Below, one piece after another: positions 35,193 through 48,895 of a stretch of DNA of 64,000 nucleotides. The position numbers and the translations under genes are program-made. The DNA comes from Alphaproteobacteria bacterium (GTDB taxonomy: Bacteria > Pseudomonadota > Alphaproteobacteria > Rs-D84). Each line of letters starts with the position of its first letter. Position 1 is the stretch's first letter. The notes below the pieces were generated by a model. The model had not been told where the DNA came from. It was given only the letters and a program-made list of their open reading frames with translations, and made no database searches. The stretch covers positions 1 to 64,000 of the forward strand of contig WRKW01000004.1 of assembly GCA_009777955.1 (NCBI GenBank), given 5' to 3'.

Positions 35193-36452
35193 ATGTCCGA
35201 AGAAAATCAAACACCGGCCACCGCCGATTATCAGATTTGCAGCTTTTGCGGCAAGGCCGTGTACGAAGTTAAAAAACTGGTAAGCGGAAGAAACGTCTGT
35301 ATATGCGACGAATGCATCGGGCTTTGCAACGACATAATGGCCGACGAAGAAAAGGGTAAAATTACCCGTGACGCGACCGCCCTGCCCACCCCCAGCAAGA
35401 TTTACAAAATCCTGAACGATTATATCATCGGCCAAGATGAAGCAAAGAAAACCCTTGCTGTCGCCGTTTATAATCATTACAAGCGTCATAGTGCCGGAAT
35501 ACGCAACGATGTAGAAATCCAAAAATCAAACATATTGATGATAGGACCGACCGGAACCGGAAAAACATTATTCGCGCAAACATTGGCACGGGTGCTGGAC
35601 GTACCGTTCGCAATCGCGGATGCAACCACGTTGACTGAGGCCGGTTATGTCGGCGAAGATGTCGAAAGCGTTTTGACACGTTTGTTACAAAGTGCCAATT
35701 TTGACATAGACCGTGCGCAGAAAGGCATAATCTATATTGATGAAATTGACAAGATCTCACGCAAGAGCGAAAACCCATCTCTTACACGCGATGTATCCGG
35801 CGAGGGTGTTCAACAAGCATTATTAAAACTTATCGAAGGTACAACCGCAAATGTTTCGTCGTCCAACGGTGCGCGAAAACATCCGGGCGAAACCGCCGTT
35901 ACCATAAATACCAATGGTATATTATTTATATGCGGTGGGGCGTTCGATGGTCTGCAAAAAATAATTGCGAATCGCACGAACGACCGTGCGGGCATAGGAT
36001 TCGGTGCGAAAGTTGAATCAAAAAAAGAACGTGCTTCAAAATACAATCTCCAAGACATCCAGCCCGGAGATATTGTGAAATTCGGAATCATCCCTGAACT
36101 TATCGGTCGACTTCCCGTTATTACCGCCCTTACCGAACTGGATGAAGACGCGCTTGTGAAAATATTGACTGAACCGAAAAATGCGATCGTAAAACAGTAT
36201 AAAGCTATGCTTGAAATGGAAGGTGTGATTCTGACAATAAAACAGGATGGTCTTTCCGCGATTGCAAAAAAAGCACTTGAACGCAAAACTGGTGCGCGTG
36301 GACTGCGCTCTATTTTGGAAAAAATACTTTTACAACCCATGTTCGATGCGCCGGACAAACCAGAATTAAAAGAGATTGTAATAGATGCGGATGTGGCGGA
36401 TGGTAAAAAACCACCGGTGGAAATTTTCGCCGATGTGAAAAAGGCGGCATAG
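35193..36452 (+). CDS. clpX: ATP-dependent Clp protease ATP-binding subunit ClpX
   Basis: [14 protein letters not shown]...CDECI zinc finger; [35 protein letters not shown]. Confidence 0.96.
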
Positions 36453-36481: not shown

Positions 36482-37426
36482 CTATCCATGCTTTATCCTG
36501 GCGTTGCGAAGAAAATTTTTTACAGTCCGACGCAGATCGTGATTCAGCTCTCGCGATTCCAATTCAGCCCATATCCTTTCATCAGAATATCCCAACTTTA
36601 CCATTTTCGGTATCAGACCGCTGTATAGCACATTATTTCTGTTATCCGGGGTGAATCCATTCAAAAGATTATCGACTTCGTTTTGTAGATCTTGTTTCCA
36701 TTTCGCATCGTAATAATTACCCAGCCCAAGGCTTTTGTAATATGCCGCCCGCTGCTTGGACAATTCATATTCTTTTTGCTGCTTTATTTTGTATCCCTCG
36801 TAAACAGAACGCCAGTCAAAATCCAGTCGGACACCGCTTTGATGTATTAATGTCTGTTCTATACAGTGGGTAATACCATCTATTTCAATCCGTCGCGCCG
36901 CACCAGGGGCACGCAATTTACGGCCATTGTTTTTACAGTTACCGTCGGCACCTTTGATATCATAAGCTTTGGTAATATAGGTCCAAAGCCATTTGTATTC
37001 TTCTTTATTCTTTGGAACATCTTTTACAGTAACCCGCATGTGAAGGGATTTTCCGCCGGAAAAAACAATCATGTTAACGACATTCAGCGATACCAGACGC
37101 GATGCCTGGATTATCTGGTCTTGCAATGATAAATTATCGCTTTCATACAAAAAGCTTATAAATCCGAAATTCGCATCGTGTCCTGTTACCGCCGGTTTAC
37201 CATTCGCCAACGGCCGGAACGGAATGGCAAGCTGGGCACCGTTTGCAACCGGATTTACCGATTCGTGCAGGCCACGGGAATCGTTATACCAGCCTGTTCC
37301 AGTTTCAAGAAAAGGCGTTCCACGCGGTATGGTGGTTGACGCGATGGAAAACCCGCTGTCGCCATTCGGGAATGTGTCCATTACCATCGGACTGATTATA
37401 TCAAATATATTACCGGCGGCGTTCAT
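36482..37426 (-). CDS. archaeo-eukaryotic primase (AEP/PrimPol)-like protein
   Basis: FLYESDNLSLQDQ (acidic motif), NMIVFSGGKSLHMRV (sGGkSxH motif), NNGRKLRAPGAARR; typical of mobile-element AEPs. Confidence 0.68.
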   Translation of the reverse strand: MNAAGNIFDIISPMVMDTFPNGDSGFSIASTTIPRGTPFLETGTGWYNDSRGLHESVNPVANGAQLAIPFRPLANGKPAVTGHDANFGFISFLYESDNLSLQDQIIQASRLVSLNVVNMIVFSGGKSLHMRVTVKDVPKNKEEYKWLWTYITKAYDIKGADGNCKNNGRKLRAPGAARRIEIDGITHCIEQTLIHQSGVRLDFDWRSVYEGYKIKQQKEYELSKQRAAYYKSLGLGNYYDAKWKQDLQNEVDNLLNGFTPDNRNNVLYSGLIPKMVKLGYSDERIWAELESRELNHDLRRTVKNFLRNARIKHG

Positions 37427-39113
37427 ATATCGGCCTTTGTATTAATCCGTTTGGTGTCAGTTTTTGCGGAATACCTGTAAATACCTGTAATGCTGATCCG
37501 TAAAGATCTTCGCTTGCTATACGAAGTTCTTCTTCATGTTCGAATATTTCTTTTTTTATCTGTTCATTGTCCGGGGCAGCCTGTAATTTTTTATACAGTG
37601 GCTGAAGATTTGCTTTCATGTCTCGGATTGTATAATAGCAAATGCTTTCTTCTTCATTCCGATCGAATAATATCTCTGCAATTGCTTCGTCCAGCACACC
37701 AAGCTTTTCTTTCCTTATCTCTCCCGTCCATTTGCTTTTTTTCTTTGATCCTTTGCCGAATTCCGTCGTCTTTATGAAATCATAACATTTGCTATAAGAT
37801 TCATCCAAAAACATCGGGCTACTGGAAATTTCCGGTCGCACAGCCGCCATCCTGTCCCAAGCGATTCGCAAAGATATGAAATATTCCATCGTTAACAGCT
37901 GGATTTCCCGGAATCCTACACTGCCGGGAATTACAGAATTTTTTATCTTGTCCGATTCGGTTGCATTAAGGCTGTATTTGTTTTCTTTTCCCGATCCAAT
38001 TTTTTCATGTAACCATTCTTTGAATTCTGCTGTTTTTTCTTTATCATCGACCAGATCGGCCAACAATCCCATATGCTTTGCCAGAAAGAACATGTGTGCC
38101 GGCGATATCAGACTTCCGGGTGCCTTTGGCACACTTATAATTTTATCTGGACATTCTGGTTCCTGTTTGCACCAGTATATTTGCTCTTTACCATTGGTAA
38201 GTATCTTTCTTCTTTTTCTGTATCCGAAATCATTATACAGGGCACTATCATATTTACTCTGGAATGAAACTATATTTTTAATTCCATGGCCGTCGGTTTC
38301 AATATTGGCGAACAACGGATTAAAAACACAATTGTCCAGGAATATTCCTATCATTCCCCATCTTTTTGTATTATCGGATTTGATTTTCGGATCCATATAG
38401 CTTTCTATTATCCGAATTAGTTTTTTTTTCGCAGGTTCGAACTTTTCCTTTAACATGCTGCCACGAACGAAATGCCAGAAAGCTTTTGTTACCTTTTCCA
38501 CCCCGCCATCCGGAAATGCAAAATAGTATCTGGCAAATATGGTTTTTACTTCTTTTTCGAAATCGGCTTTTAACCTGTTTTGCAGTATGGCGTTCGCCTG
38601 GCGAACGGGTTCTATTTCTTCTTCACACCATGCGCGAAAAGGCGGCAGATCCGGGGCCATGTCGTTTTTAAACGAATCAGTTCTCCGCCAGTGTTCTTTC
38701 ATGGCCAGATACATTCCATACCGGGATACATAGATTTGTTCAGACGGGAACAGCTCGTATTTCGTCTTTTCGTTCACCAGTCGTATATGACCCTCGGGAA
38801 TTTTATACTGCCTTACCAGGCATGCCAATGTTTTCGATATACTTTTTGGGACAAAGCCTGGGTCTAGGATACGCATTACAGAATCGTGATGCCAGCAATC
38901 CCGGTATCTTATAGTTTTTTTCGCGGTAACAAGCGCGTTGTGCAAACTGTCAAACAATCCGTCCAATGATTGCGGATTTGAATAAGCGAAAAATCGCAGG
39001 GGAAAATTATACTTGTCATCAAACTGTATGGATAATGCGAAATCGGGGTTTTCCCACAACGCATATTTCAGTTTTTCCAACTTTGAAAATTTTTTTTCAA
39101 ATACTTCGGACAT
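37410..39113 (-). CDS. large protein of unknown function, coupled to the AEP-like gene
   Basis: MSEVFEKKFSKLEKL...; overlaps the next gene by 17 bp; start refined to 39113; no recognisable Walker or nuclease motif. Confidence 0.75.
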   Translation of the reverse strand: MSEVFEKKFSKLEKLKYALWENPDFALSIQFDDKYNFPLRFFAYSNPQSLDGLFDSLHNALVTAKKTIRYRDCWHHDSVMRILDPGFVPKSISKTLACLVRQYKIPEGHIRLVNEKTKYELFPSEQIYVSRYGMYLAMKEHWRRTDSFKNDMAPDLPPFRAWCEEEIEPVRQANAILQNRLKADFEKEVKTIFARYYFAFPDGGVEKVTKAFWHFVRGSMLKEKFEPAKKKLIRIIESYMDPKIKSDNTKRWGMIGIFLDNCVFNPLFANIETDGHGIKNIVSFQSKYDSALYNDFGYRKRRKILTNGKEQIYWCKQEPECPDKIISVPKAPGSLISPAHMFFLAKHMGLLADLVDDKEKTAEFKEWLHEKIGSGKENKYSLNATESDKIKNSVIPGSVGFREIQLLTMEYFISLRIAWDRMAAVRPEISSSPMFLDESYSKCYDFIKTTEFGKGSKKKSKWTGEIRKEKLGVLDEAIAEILFDRNEEESICYYTIRDMKANLQPLYKKLQAAPDNEQIKKEIFEHEEELRIASEDLYGSALQVFTGIPQKLTPNGLIQRPIYERRR

Positions 39114-39249
39114 GGGCTGTATTAAATCACAAAAATATTGTTTGTCAAGATTACTACAAAAACATGATAAATGTTTTACGCCTTTATGCCCCACGATTTA
39201 CGCCCCATGCTTTACACATCACTTATCACTTTTCACATGGGGCGTTTTC

Positions 39250-39274: not shown

Positions 39275-40180
39275 ATGCAAATTCACAAAGTTTCATTATT
39301 TGTGCTCTGTGTCCTGTTTGTCGTATGCACAATGCAAAGCGGCCTTGCCGCCGCGTGCAATTCGCCGAACCTGGTTCGATGTATGGATTCCGCCTGTGTC
39401 GCCGAAGCTTCCATGGAAACTGGTGCCCGTTGCGCCCAATGTTATTCAGCCGAAGCCCAGGCCGTCATAAACGAAAAATCAACATATAAGTTCGGCGGAA
39501 GGTCAAGAGCAGTGATGCGGTCTTTGGGCAGATCCAATGCCACTTCGCTGGATATGTCCGATGCCCCCGACGATCCGGCCACCCGATACCAATGGGCGGT
39601 AGCCGAATGTATCAAAAAGATTACCGGCTGTACTTTGAATGATGTGTCGAAACACTATGACCAGCTGATTGAACAATCATGTATCGCGGTTGGCGCAAAA
39701 ATGGATGTAACAAAAGCATTAAAAGAATCCGAAGCGAATAAGAAAAATGAAAATTCATGTACGGCCGACATTAATATGTGCCTTATGACAGACAATGGAT
39801 GTGCGACAGACTGGTCCAGATGCGGCGAAGATGCGGAATTTGACAGGGCGTTTTCATCCTGTGTGTCCAGCACCGAGTGCGGACATTTAACAACCCTTAG
39901 CGGAATAAAGGACACAGCGAAAAAATCGCGCGACGATTTTGCCGCGGCAAAGGCTTCCAATATAGAGGCTTTGGCCGCCAGCTATGCCACAGCACGCAAA
40001 GCGGAACTGGATAAAGTCATGCAAGGATGTCAGAACAATATGCTAAAAACAGTTTGTATAGCAAAGTTTTGCAGCAGCATGCCGGGAAAATGCGGCGAAG
40101 GAGAAACAGAAGCCAACAGGATAAGGGAATTCTGCAAATACGTGGATATAGCATGCGACAGACTTTTGATGAGCAGGTAA
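39275..40180 (+). CDS. secreted Cys-rich protein (divergent CMD family)
   Basis: Signal peptide MQIHKVSLFVLCVLFVVCTMQSGLAAA; CMDSACVAEASMETGARCAQC; CLMTDNGCATDWSRC. Confidence 0.8.
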   Translation: MQIHKVSLFVLCVLFVVCTMQSGLAAACNSPNLVRCMDSACVAEASMETGARCAQCYSAEAQAVINEKSTYKFGGRSRAVMRSLGRSNATSLDMSDAPDDPATRYQWAVAECIKKITGCTLNDVSKHYDQLIEQSCIAVGAKMDVTKALKESEANKKNENSCTADINMCLMTDNGCATDWSRCGEDAEFDRAFSSCVSSTECGHLTTLSGIKDTAKKSRDDFAAAKASNIEALAASYATARKAELDKVMQGCQNNMLKTVCIAKFCSSMPGKCGEGETEANRIREFCKYVDIACDRLLMSR

Positions 40181-40182
40181 TA

Positions 40183-41697
40183 ATGAAAAATTTGAAACAA
40201 ATCTTTTTCAAATCGAACACTTGCAAACTGCTTGTCTGTTCGTTATTCATTATCCAATATTCATTATTTATTATGCCGCAGGTTGCAGAGGCGGCACGCG
40301 CACAATCACGTGCGGCACCGACATCTCGCATGGCAATAGCAAATACAGCCGCGCCCGTCGCCCAACCGATTGAAGAAATACCCGAATCGGTGCCGGAACC
40401 GGTTGCACCCGAACCGGCACCCGTTCCACAGATGCCACGACTTGATCTTTCACACATATTCGAAGAAGTAGTCGGAAATAAAGAAACTGCCCTTGCAAAG
40501 ACGATTCGGGCACAACGCGAAGCATTTGCGGCGGCGGCAGCTATGGAAAGCTATCAGGCGGATCTTGCCCGGTTTTCTAGCGGTACCGGAAATACATGCG
40601 ATTCCGGTCTGCGCAAGTGTATGGCAGAAAGATGCGGAAAAGATTTTTCCGATTGCACGGGGGATGGCGACACCGTATGGGGAAACAAAATCGAATCCTG
40701 TGGCCGCACGACAAATTGCAGCGGCCGGGAACTGATACTATTCTCTGCGGAAATAAAGGCGGATCGTGACCAGAATGCCCTGCTCGCACGGTTCGAAGCT
40801 GTCGAAAGATGCGGCCGCCAATATAACGAATGCATACTTGGGAACTGCAGCGATCCGACCTGTAATGAAACAAATATTCGCGCCGGCAGATGTAATTTTG
40901 ACAAATGCCTTTCCAAATCAGAGGGCGATGCCGTCATAGCCAAATGCCGCGACATCGCCGAAAGATGCCGCGAACAGGACAGCGGGCTGGCCGGTCGTGC
41001 GATGACATTATTTGCGGAATTGCGTGTAGATGTGGAAAAAGAAATTGTTCGTTGGGAAGAACAGCTTTACAAAATGCGCGAAGATATGCGCAACGAATGC
41101 AGAAGCATCAGTGGTGTTTTTGACGATCGTTCGTTATCTTGCGTATTCCATGTCGAATTAACGGCAACAGGTTTCGAATCCGCCGCCGCGACAAGAACAC
41201 TTGCCGCCGGCGACGAATATATGTGTACACCAGAATGGTTCGGGGTGGATATCAGCACATACATAGAAAACGCGGCACGTTATGAACGCGAACAGCAAGG
41301 TGCCATAAATGCAGTCATGGGTGCTGGCATGGGTATGGCGGCGGGTTCTATTTTAAGTGGCGAAATGTCACGCAACACTGCGACACGGAACGCGCAAACC
41401 GATCTTGATAAAGAAGTATGTGAACAAGCGGGAAAAACTGAATGGAAAAGCCAGCTTATTGGTAACGGTAAATGCGTATGCACGGAAAAAGATTTCAAAT
41501 GGAATAAAAAAGAAAAGAAATGCATAGAACAAAGCCAATGCAAGGGCAACGACTGCGATGATGACGACGATGAAGACGAAACGAAAACCAGTGGCACAAG
41601 AAACACGGATAGTACAGATGGTGATAAAGATGAAAAGAAAACCGGTGGTCTAAGAAACGCAGCCAGCGCAGTGGGAAATATACTTCGAAGAAATTAA
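40183..41697 (+). CDS. secreted Cys-rich protein (divergent), Pro/Glu-rich linker, charged C-terminus
   Basis: ATG 2 bp after upstream stop; CDSGLRKCMAERCGKDFSDCTGDG; Gly-rich AINAVMGAGMGMAAGSI; acidic DDDDDEDE tract. Confidence 0.8.
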   Translation: MKNLKQIFFKSNTCKLLVCSLFIIQYSLFIMPQVAEAARAQSRAAPTSRMAIANTAAPVAQPIEEIPESVPEPVAPEPAPVPQMPRLDLSHIFEEVVGNKETALAKTIRAQREAFAAAAAMESYQADLARFSSGTGNTCDSGLRKCMAERCGKDFSDCTGDGDTVWGNKIESCGRTTNCSGRELILFSAEIKADRDQNALLARFEAVERCGRQYNECILGNCSDPTCNETNIRAGRCNFDKCLSKSEGDAVIAKCRDIAERCREQDSGLAGRAMTLFAELRVDVEKEIVRWEEQLYKMREDMRNECRSISGVFDDRSLSCVFHVELTATGFESAAATRTLAAGDEYMCTPEWFGVDISTYIENAARYEREQQGAINAVMGAGMGMAAGSILSGEMSRNTATRNAQTDLDKEVCEQAGKTEWKSQLIGNGKCVCTEKDFKWNKKEKKCIEQSQCKGNDCDDDDDEDETKTSGTRNTDSTDGDKDEKKTGGLRNAASAVGNILRRN

Positions 41698-44971: not shown

Positions 44972-45058
44972 TTAACGACCATCTACTACCGACTGACGAC
45001 TATTTTCCCCTTGCCTTGTATTTTTGTTTTACTGTATGATAAAAGGCAAGAGAGAATA

Positions 45059-48000
45059 ATGTTAAAGAACTTTCGCAGAATATTTGCTGTTTGTTCTCTG
45101 CTCTGCGCCGTTTGCGCGGGCATGCCTGCACGCGCGGCATCAAATGAATTCCAACTTGCAACACAGCTTTTGGCGGCGGCGCGCGCCGGTAATGTCGGCC
45201 AAGTGCAAAGCCTGGTAAATCACGGTGCCAACGTGAATTACATCGACAGCACGGGGCTTTCCATCGTATGCACCGCACTTATGAATAACGATTTGCGTGC
45301 GGCGCAAATTTTACAGACATACGGCGCGGATGCCAGCCGGTGCGACCAACAGATAAGACGATTCAACCAACGACAGCCCAGCGAAGAAACCGAAGGATTG
45401 TTCAGCGGACTTTCCACAGCACAGACCATGGCATTGGCAATCGGCGGTGCTGCGGTGGCAATCGCCACGGTTTGGTATGTCAGCGGTCTTTTGGGCGTTC
45501 GCAGCAACAATAATAATCCCGGCGACAGCGGAAGCAGACCAAAGTCCGGAAATAATAATCCCGGCGACAGCGGAAATACTTTCAACAGTTGGACATACGG
45601 TGCCTTGCCATACGGCCCGTCACAAGCGTTCGGTTCAGAATTCGTAAGCGGCACCGGCGATAAGTGGGACTATTTCAGTGCCCAAGACAATTTCCTTAAC
45701 GCGAACAGCCCCGTCAGCGCGACACCCGGTCCAGACTTTCAGCTTTTGTCTTCCACCCTGCCCTTTGGATTGAATCTTCAAAATCATTTACTGTTGATGC
45801 AGGGATACGGTGCACTCGCACGCGGATATATGGGAATGACAATCCTGCGTTCGACGGGTCAGCCCTTTGCCCCTTTGCGCGCGGATGTAACCAGCAACGG
45901 CACCCCGGTCACATTCGACGGCCTTCCACCTGGCGGTGGAAAACCTGTATCGGTCGCACTGATTTCAACAAATGGAATTAATGCCGGCGCACGTGCAGTT
46001 GGCGACCCGAATTACGCGACAGATCCGGCGGTCGGCGGTGGAAGCTCTATTGAAGATGGTTGGCTATTCTGGGCGGCAAGTCAGGGCGACGCGACGAAAA
46101 ACTCTACTTCGCGGCGGTTTTACAATAACAAGATAACGCGCATAGCCCCGGCATCAACTGTCGCAAATGATATAATAACAGAAGATGAAAGATTTGATCT
46201 TGCCGGGGAAAACAGTGCCATTTACAATATAAACGCATCATGGTACGACGATCTTTTGGCAAAAACAATTATAGGCGGAATGTCCAGCGAAACAGGCCGC
46301 GCATACGGGGACTATACGGGCTTTATGCCGAACGGACAACTGATGGTTTTCAGAACCGGCGGTGGCTGGTCATATTCGCTGGATACCACCGGCGGCACGG
46401 TCAAAGCCACAGATGCAGTTTTTACAAATTCCACTGAATCATTGCAAACATTGGATTCGATTGAAATTGGTGGTGTGGTATACAAAGCATTTTATGATTC
46501 TACACGAACTATATTGACCCTTACCGCCGATGGCCATCCGGCACTGACATGGTACATAGGCAATGACGGGCTGGCATACACTGATCCGGGTAATCCGGCA
46601 CAGGATATATACGCGCTGAACGGTACAGATATCGTGAATGTTATTGTTACGAAAACAAGACAGGATTATAAGAATTATACAGCCATGCTTTATTCCCTGG
46701 GTGCGGCGAACGAAAACGGGGAAAGGATGGTTAATACCAGCGTGACCCAGCAAGACCAGGGACTTACGGCCCAGGTTGGGGTCATAGCGAATGCGGCACC
46801 GGTGATAGAAATGTACGGCACCGACACCCAAACTGCAACAGAAATTACAAGATATACCGCCGGGGCAAACAGAAGAACCGCATTTGAAAACTGGATTAAC
46901 GATTATTACAACCTGACGGATGATGCGGGAAGAACAGAAGCCAATAACGCAAGGGCATTCTTTGGTGGATTGGGTTCCCAGTATAACCCAATTACAATAT
47001 TTTCAACTGGCGGATATTTGCTGGGCACCATGGCCGAAATCACCAACCCGGGATTCAGCATAGGCAGTACCCAAGAAGCAACCTTTGAAAATGCCGCGCC
47101 GCTTGTTTATGACGGATTGAATCATTTATTCATGTCTGTTGTCGCGGTACAGCTGGGCAACGGAACGCCGGGTTCTACAAGTACCGGCATCTCTGGATGG
47201 GTTCCGGCCTCGTCCCAAAAGATCACATTATCAACCTGGATTGATCCATACGCAGATCCAAACGATCCAAATATAGAATTTTATGGCGCGCGTACATGCG
47301 GTATCGCTGGACGGGGTTCTTCGACTGTCGATCCCTGGTGCTTTGCGGCGGCCGGCGTAACAGATCAACTTGCTGTGGCATCAATGGCCGGGGCAGTCGG
47401 TGCCCTGCAAAGCGCGTTCGGAAGTTATATGAGCAACGACCAGATATTCGTACTTTTGGCACTGACCGCGGATGGTCGCGCAATGCCGGAATTGGATCTT
47501 ATGGATCTGTACCAGTTACCGGGGGAATATCAGTTCAAGGTGGATAATAACCTGATGACATTTGCAGATGCATTTGCCGAAGTGTTTGGATACGGGCTTG
47601 TCAATCTGGATCGTGCGACACGTCCGGGAACCAGTGTCAATTATTATGTCACGAACAGGATTAATTCTTCACCGAATGCCGCATTTTGGCGAACCGCCAG
47701 CATAAGCCCGAATTTTGCCGCGCGATCGGGGATGTCATTATCCGGTGCGTTCGGAATGCGTTCGGCTTCGATAAAAATACCGGTATTTGATATCATAAAA
47801 TCCGCCGACGGAGAAATGTCAATGCCACGCATATTCGATAATTCGGTATCACTTGCGTCCAGTCGTCGCGGAATGTGGCTGGGCGATGTTCTTGGTGAAT
47901 TCAAAGTCGCAAATAACGATTCACAGTTGGGGTCTGACGGTTCCCGCCTTGCAGCTGTCATGTCGTTGCGCGAAAGCCATATTGATGACGGATACGGCAA

Positions 48001-48895
48001 TATTGATAAATTAAAACTTAACTATCATTTTGGCGCATGGAATTTTGGCGCAAGATACGAACGTAATTTCGGCGATTCAAATATTCTGCGCGGCGATAAT
48101 TCCAATCCGGTGCTTAGCATCGCATCGCATGCGGTATCAACCGATGCATCATTTAATTTCGGCGGCGATGAAGACAAAGGCGGATGGAAATTTCATGCGC
48201 GCGGATTTACCGGATCGATTACAGAAGAAGGCCTGCTTGCCAATGATCCCGCCCTTTCCGGACAACGCGAATTGATGAAACTTGGTTCGGTTCAGGGCTT
48301 TGATACCGGCACGACCTATGATGCGGGTATATTCTCGTTCGGTATAAGCGGCGGTCTTTTAAATGAATCCGATACCATGCTGGGCGCGTATTCCGATGGT
48401 CTGCTTTCGATTGGCGGTGGAAATACTGTCTATGTTGATAATATGCTTACATTGCGGGCGGGCGAAAAGCTGAAATTCAATGCGCGTTACACAGCCGCGC
48501 GCACAGATGCGAATAGGGTCGCTGATACGGTAATTATCGGACTGTCCGGATTGCGATCGGATGCGATGTCTGTCGGTGCAGAATACGGTGGATTTACATT
48601 AAGCGTTTCACAGCCGTTGGCACTGGTAAACGGGGCGATGGAATATGTGACTGCGGATTATCGGATTGTCGAATCGGAAAATGGATTTGATCTGGCGGCG
48701 ACCCCTTATATCAACAGCCTTGATTTATCGCCCGCGCACCGCGAAACACGAATCGGCGCGGCGTACCGTACCGCTCTTGGCGATTTTACCTTTGGCGCGG
48801 TGGGATTTGTATACCGCATAAATCCGAATCATACCACTGAATTCGGAAACGAAACCCTGTTGATGTTTAAATTGAATCATCGACTGGGGATATAA
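45059..48895 (+). CDS. autotransporter-like protein: ankyrin N-terminus, S8-like passenger, C-terminal beta-barrel
   Basis: Signal peptide; AARAGNVGQVQSLVNHGANVNYIDSTG; ASMAGAVGALQSAF...FGYGLVNLDRATRP; C-terminal barrel ending in FKLNHRLGI; start refined to 45059. Confidence 0.75.
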   Translation: MLKNFRRIFAVCSLLCAVCAGMPARAASNEFQLATQLLAAARAGNVGQVQSLVNHGANVNYIDSTGLSIVCTALMNNDLRAAQILQTYGADASRCDQQIRRFNQRQPSEETEGLFSGLSTAQTMALAIGGAAVAIATVWYVSGLLGVRSNNNNPGDSGSRPKSGNNNPGDSGNTFNSWTYGALPYGPSQAFGSEFVSGTGDKWDYFSAQDNFLNANSPVSATPGPDFQLLSSTLPFGLNLQNHLLLMQGYGALARGYMGMTILRSTGQPFAPLRADVTSNGTPVTFDGLPPGGGKPVSVALISTNGINAGARAVGDPNYATDPAVGGGSSIEDGWLFWAASQGDATKNSTSRRFYNNKITRIAPASTVANDIITEDERFDLAGENSAIYNINASWYDDLLAKTIIGGMSSETGRAYGDYTGFMPNGQLMVFRTGGGWSYSLDTTGGTVKATDAVFTNSTESLQTLDSIEIGGVVYKAFYDSTRTILTLTADGHPALTWYIGNDGLAYTDPGNPAQDIYALNGTDIVNVIVTKTRQDYKNYTAMLYSLGAANENGERMVNTSVTQQDQGLTAQVGVIANAAPVIEMYGTDTQTATEITRYTAGANRRTAFENWINDYYNLTDDAGRTEANNARAFFGGLGSQYNPITIFSTGGYLLGTMAEITNPGFSIGSTQEATFENAAPLVYDGLNHLFMSVVAVQLGNGTPGSTSTGISGWVPASSQKITLSTWIDPYADPNDPNIEFYGARTCGIAGRGSSTVDPWCFAAAGVTDQLAVASMAGAVGALQSAFGSYMSNDQIFVLLALTADGRAMPELDLMDLYQLPGEYQFKVDNNLMTFADAFAEVFGYGLVNLDRATRPGTSVNYYVTNRINSSPNAAFWRTASISPNFAARSGMSLSGAFGMRSASIKIPVFDIIKSADGEMSMPRIFDNSVSLASSRRGMWLGDVLGEFKVANNDSQLGSDGSRLAAVMSLRESHIDDGYGNIDKLKLNYHFGAWNFGARYERNFGDSNILRGDNSNPVLSIASHAVSTDASFNFGGDEDKGGWKFHARGFTGSITEEGLLANDPALSGQRELMKLGSVQGFDTGTTYDAGIFSFGISGGLLNESDTMLGAYSDGLLSIGGGNTVYVDNMLTLRAGEKLKFNARYTAARTDANRVADTVIIGLSGLRSDAMSVGAEYGGFTLSVSQPLALVNGAMEYVTADYRIVESENGFDLAATPYINSLDLSPAHRETRIGAAYRTALGDFTFGAVGFVYRINPNHTTEFGNETLLMFKLNHRLGI

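Follow-up and report, generated by a model that had tools for sequence, protein, structure and literature searches.

Archaeo-eukaryotic primases (AEPs) encoded on bacterial chromosomes are reported to be almost always the cargo of mobile elements (PMC5862659). AEPs of such elements include RepB', RepE/RepS, the all3500-like enzymes and PrimPol-PV1 (PMC5862659), while LigD polymerase, the PrimPol repair enzymes and CAPP share the fold and offer a precedent for roles beyond mobile-element replication. DinD is known to modulate RecA filaments (Uranga 2011, as cited in PMC4457935). We analysed 64,000 nucleotides (nt) of an Alphaproteobacteria bacterium (contig WRKW01000004.1, positions 1–64,000, forward strand, assembly GCA_009777955.1; hereafter "the window"), in which an AEP-like open reading frame (ORF) of 314 residues overlaps an ORF of 567 residues beside clpX. 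Genomes, genera and loci are referred to below by G, g and L numbers.

Like the AEPs of mobile elements, the window protein has the AEP fold, an acidic motif I and an SxH motif II, and a PriCT-type helical tail (in its relatives) and fusion to other domains are common to both. It differs in that genes of this type are chromosomal, syntenic across genera and free of recognised mobile genes, and in that the N-terminal partner is DinD-like rather than a helicase. Compared with PrimPol-PV1, R169 and R172 are invariant here, encoding within an integrated mobile element was not found and no PV1 family is assigned. LigD polymerase, PrimPol and CAPP have other partners, whereas the window-type gene carries no ligase, CRISPR or helicase domain. 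What sets the locus apart is that several genera retain an AEP on the chromosome in addition to an ordinary DnaG, and that this AEP is joined to a domain with a RecA modulator among its relatives.

Fold and motifs support an archaeo-eukaryotic primase

The primase ORF (36482–37426, minus strand, ATG start) encodes three AEP signatures, all quoted in a first-pass annotation of the window and all real: E95-S-D97-N-L, with motif I at E95-S-D97 (37136–37144); S123-GGKSLH129, or motif II (residues 123–129, 37040–37060); and R172-APGAARR179, the basic motif R172-x-PGAARR (36890–36913). The alignment of 18 homologues shows no variation at E95, S123, S127, H129, R169 and R172 and almost none at D97, D161 and P174, a conservation far beyond chance. 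D161 (36944–36946) is the candidate acid of motif III, an assignment made from its position.

The AlphaFold model has a confident core and a helical tail, and its 17 best matches in the PDB are all AEPs, so the AEP identity proposed earlier is borne out and no other fold was assigned. The plasmid primase RepB' (3h20) leads with an E-value of 4e-4 and a probability of 1.00, followed by matches that include the cyanophage S-2L PrimPol, LigD polymerase, CAPP and PriS. RepB' is the only match below E 0.001 and TM-scores are low, with a query that included a long disordered start as well as the helical tail. The ORF matches PHROG DNA primase 2597 at 1e-6; Pfam and NCBIfam contain no family that scores above cut-off for this ORF or its upstream partner. 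The tail (residues 240–314, 36485–36709) is PriCT-like in that it is helical in the model and PriCT_2 matches at this position in the G017 homologue (2e-22); the tail of the window copy itself has no Pfam match. Taken together, the modelled fold and the motifs support identification as an AEP, which would be expected to synthesise primers.

The closest stand-alone homologues found are phage primases of about 300 residues with the same motifs, which occur in nine IMG/VR loci (scan with the closer alignment A5). They lack the upstream domain and lie in phage gene clusters; in one (L066) a DnaB-type helicase is encoded a few kilobases away. Viral-contig scans with the single protein or with alignment A3 gave no confirmed homologue, and neither did tblastn against phage genomes. 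Plasmids gave four weak cyanobacterial matches, and a PDB sequence search with the AEP profile or that of the upstream domain returned nothing meaningful.

A gene fused in relatives and apparently split in the window

The upstream ORF (37410–39113, minus strand) encodes 567 residues from the ATG at 39113, or 594 if an upstream GTG serves as the start. The sizes, places and 17-bp overlap (37410–37426, different frames) of the two ORFs were confirmed. The overlap falls at the linker position of homologues from six further members of the family (G005, G006, G008, G009, G021 and G022), where both parts, with their order unchanged, make up a single ORF of about 690–880 residues. In G017 the two halves lie on two contigs, each of which ends inside the gene. 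The window pair therefore looks like a split form of one gene, with an N-terminal half that we call the N-domain protein and a C-terminal primase half, and the initial description as a two-gene cassette has to be given up.

The frame change lies within the variable linker. A sequencing or assembly error in a gene that is really fused would be compatible with any reading of function, and it draws some plausibility from the fact that the split is known from one genome of the species and that one inserted or deleted base, in the short stretch where neither frame is closed, would unite them. That stretch, however, contains no homopolymer longer than three bases, and a Shine-Dalgarno-like AAAGG (37434–37438) stands 7 nt before the primase ATG. 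For these reasons true fission with translational coupling seems likelier, as judged from the one genome of the species examined, and we consider an error improbable. The overlapping ORFs are probably translationally coupled.

The N-domain is distantly related to DinD

The N-domain protein has no match to the NCBIfam DinD model (NF008573; cut-off 242 bits). Its profile does weakly match a 324-residue protein of genus g12 (G079), which itself matches NCBIfam DinD at 3e-12, below the model cut-off. Profile comparison with hhalign gave a score of 51.7 against DinD and 60.9 against DinD-like proteins of the same bacterial family, which match DinD at 98% probability; 150 column-shuffled controls reached at most 22.7 and 23.7, respectively. 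The shared core includes the signatures LSRYA and FA..YF. Because these scores lie far above those of the controls, the homology is real, if distant, and mainly involves residues 69–221 (38451–38909). The label "large unclassified protein" holds insofar as no Pfam or NCBIfam family covers it, but distant homology to DinD can now be assigned by profile comparison.

DinD and the N-domain thus have a core in common, and stand-alone DinD-like proteins exist in the same family. The N-domain protein differs in being twice as long, linked to a primase and without a DinD-model match of its own. Its AlphaFold model has a predicted local distance difference test score (pLDDT) of 78 and a predicted template modelling score (pTM) of 0.77; the best match in a viral fold library was a phage antirepressor (E 0.012), which we do not count as evidence. 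Two stand-alone DinD-like proteins of genus g12 (L061, 3056–4030; L082, 1474–2430) score below the DinD cut-off, and such proteins are a possible source family of the N-domain. In G013 the N-domain occurs alone (L037, 3978–5501, 507 residues) with no primase module, and the gene adjoins one for a 201-residue helix-turn-helix protein with a weak match to a transposase-type helix-turn-helix.

Primase modules appear interchangeable behind the N-domain

Two further fusions carry the same N-domain and the same type of clamp-type linker in front of primase modules that are unrelated or only distantly related to the window AEP. In G010 the module is a Prim-Pol (1.8e-8) with PriCT_2 (3e-20). In G012 it is an apparent TOPRIM-type primase (6e-5 to subfamily PRK07078) with an EGAKTADA-type motif read by eye, in an ORF that ends at the contig end. 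The G006 and G012 N-domains form a strongly supported sister pair, and so do the two ClpX proteins, yet the primases of these genomes are unrelated, indicating that the N-domain was inherited while the primase changed. In the AEP tree G005 groups with G006 instead, which argues for exchange of the primase module. These are small trees of a fast-evolving gene; the G017 row for ClpX (wrong ORF, long branch) was ignored.

A motif of the QLDIF type, resembling the beta-clamp consensus QLxLF (PMC4549789), follows directly after the N-domain in 7 of 11 loci, compared with a maximum of 4 in 2000 shuffles. Its variants are QLDIF, QIDIF, QTTLF, KLDLF and QLSLNF. From these comparisons, the DinD-like domain seems to be the constant part and the primases (AEP, Prim-Pol/PriCT-2 AEP and TOPRIM-type) interchangeable. 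Since the primases that replace one another behind one domain are unrelated, selection has most likely acted on priming as such, and their non-homologous exchange behind one domain and a clamp-type linker suggests that what is selected is priming at a specified location.

The AEPs of G015, G067 and G116 have other N-terminal parts and were left out of all counts of the system. Those of G015 and G067 (L035 and L036, genus g12) are distant AEPs in nearly identical elements that also encode a resolvase-like protein and a 1579-residue protein, and that look mobile. The G116 locus (L033) is a phage-like region in which a DUF5906 helicase is fused before the AEP, so that the customary order of primase and helicase is inverted.

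Distribution, chromosomal sites and expression signals

The N-domain profile detected 12 of 184 genomes of the family, in 11 of its 14 genera; one of these genera (g12) is counted solely by a weak stand-alone DinD-like match. Among 399 genomes sampled from across the phylum it was found in the window genome alone (0 of the other 398), so the domain appears to be restricted to the family. Most genomes compared are metagenome assemblies, and several genera that carry the gene have genomes of about 1 Mb.

Several genera share chromosomal sites. In G006, G008, G021 and G022 the gene is flanked by lysS and tgt, and in G010 it is two genes away from lysS. The two G017 contigs that carry its halves hold tgt and htpX, respectively, and the gene there is probably in the same lysS-side neighbourhood. 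In g12 the lysS-tgt interval is present without the gene. Elsewhere it stands beside parC and an M23 peptidase gene (G005 and G013) or between tyrS and serS (G009). In the window it is tail to tail with clpX (35193–36452, plus strand), which ends 29 bp from the primase ORF. The comparison of the clpX locus that had been proposed revealed an empty site in G001 and G005, where clpX is directly followed by the homologue of the right neighbour of the pair (39275–40180, plus strand), a cysteine-rich protein of secreted type.

No integrase, capsid, conjugation or partition genes were recognised beside the fused or split copies, as judged from neighbouring ORFs read by eye and a few Pfam scans. For the window this agrees with the first-pass annotation, which saw no integrase, capsid or partition gene near the pair. 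A search for terminal repeats bounding the pair found short, chance-level repeats only. Foreign base composition was likewise rejected, with a G+C content of 0.40–0.44 compared with 0.45 for the window. That annotation had left open a mobile-element remnant or a stand-alone cassette. Shared chromosomal sites, empty sites in relatives and the lack of recognised mobile genes speak for the stand-alone option. A host gene that is being maintained, which may serve either repair or defence, fits the data better than a remnant.

Each of the 11 N-domain genes has a TTGAC box before its start codon, at a distance of about 35 bp except in G009 (about 79 bp), and a TATAAT-like box usually almost touches the start codon. 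In the window, TTGACA (39143–39148, minus strand) forms the putative -35 box, and the -10-like TTAATA (39120–39125) ends 6 nt before the ATG in a leaderless-type arrangement. In a strict scan, 5 of 8 N-domain genes showed the arrangement, compared with 4 of 171 other ORFs, for a pattern picked out after the sequences had been inspected. This suggests a strong, leaderless transcript and weighs against a dead remnant. The TTGACA-type promoter, which nearly adjoins the start codon in most copies, is common to copies at different chromosomal sites.

Function and alternative explanations

DnaG is encoded in all 19 genomes tested, which rules out a replacement of DnaG and makes the gene product an additional primase; RecA was found in 10 of 11. 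The AEP fold and motifs, the fusion in relatives, the DinD homology, the interchange of primases, the chromosomal sites and the presence of DnaG are directly supported. The explanation that we prefer, and to which we would give an even chance, is that the gene encodes a host-adopted accessory primase of phage origin that acts as one functional unit steered by its DinD-like domain and the clamp. From the same data we infer priming activity, clamp binding, targeting to forks or RecA and a role in repair. The DinD-like N-domain would be the lasting part, targeting the protein to DNA or to a recombination or replication structure. Where present, the linker motif would tether the protein to the replisome through the beta clamp, and the C-terminal module (in the window an AEP with a PriCT-like tail) would make primers. 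The domain and the clamp-type linker most likely decide where priming acts, which could be extra priming or repriming besides DnaG, such as at forks that have stalled or are coated with RecA. The window lineage has the gene next to clpX, where it would have been split in the linker into two overlapping ORFs, and the clamp motif is missing.

Several observations weigh against this explanation. Neither g4 nor the large genus g12 has the gene, and four g1 genomes also lack it, so it is dispensable. Its evolution is much faster than that of ClpX and resembles that of a conflict gene rather than a housekeeping gene. The window linker has no QLxLF-type clamp motif, and the window copy is also split. 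The link to DinD is distant, covering 84–159 aligned columns, and a fold search with the N-domain gave no significant match (none in the PDB). A simple pattern search found no SOS box upstream.

Some of these observations sit as well with an anti-phage or anti-plasmid factor, in which the DinD-like domain aims a phage-type primase at an invader so as to disturb its replication, with modules swapped against different phages. Interference with invaders explains the fast evolution and the C-terminal module exchange about as naturally, and also suits the patchy presence, so we treat it as a serious rival even though we judge it unlikely. The closest stand-alone AEP relatives are, moreover, phage primases (one beside a DnaB-type helicase), and a streptococcal phage-like island is reported to carry a DinD homologue as cargo (PMC4129442). 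However, PADLOC gave only a marginal Specificity_I match (E 0.0015) over a helical stretch, no defence genes were recognised among the neighbours, synteny looks vertical in several genera, and the catalytic residues are preserved, although a simple decoy could do without them. Somewhat less probable still is the decaying replicase of a formerly integrated mobile element, in the course of breaking up and disappearing. A split window copy with no clamp motif, absence from four genus mates and different sites in different genera are what such decay would leave, and it fits the patchiness and the split. It does not fit the shared sites, the intact catalytic motifs, the long open frames or the similar promoters, nor the lack of recognised mobile genes around fused copies and of noteworthy terminal repeats.

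One further reading we rate a little below even. The gene may represent a previously undescribed chromosomal priming system with a constant, DinD-derived and clamp-tethered domain and a primase that can come from any of several non-homologous superfamilies (AEP, Prim-Pol and TOPRIM), serving either repriming at damaged or RecA-coated forks or the fight against invading replicons. Such exchange of primases opens the question of whether bacteria have a repriming enzyme to direct testing.

Neighbouring genes

Beside clpX, the window region 39275–41697 encodes two cysteine-containing, secreted-type proteins with no Pfam match. Homologues follow clpX in G001, G003, G004 and G005, and the two look like a family-specific conserved pair. 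The LysRS proteins of G005 and G011 (L140 and L139) are 41–43% identical to the query, compared with 62–87% in other genera, which suggests a replacement of lysS. Further along the window, a 1294-residue ORF (45011–48895) has weak ankyrin-repeat matches and possibly encodes a large host-interaction protein.
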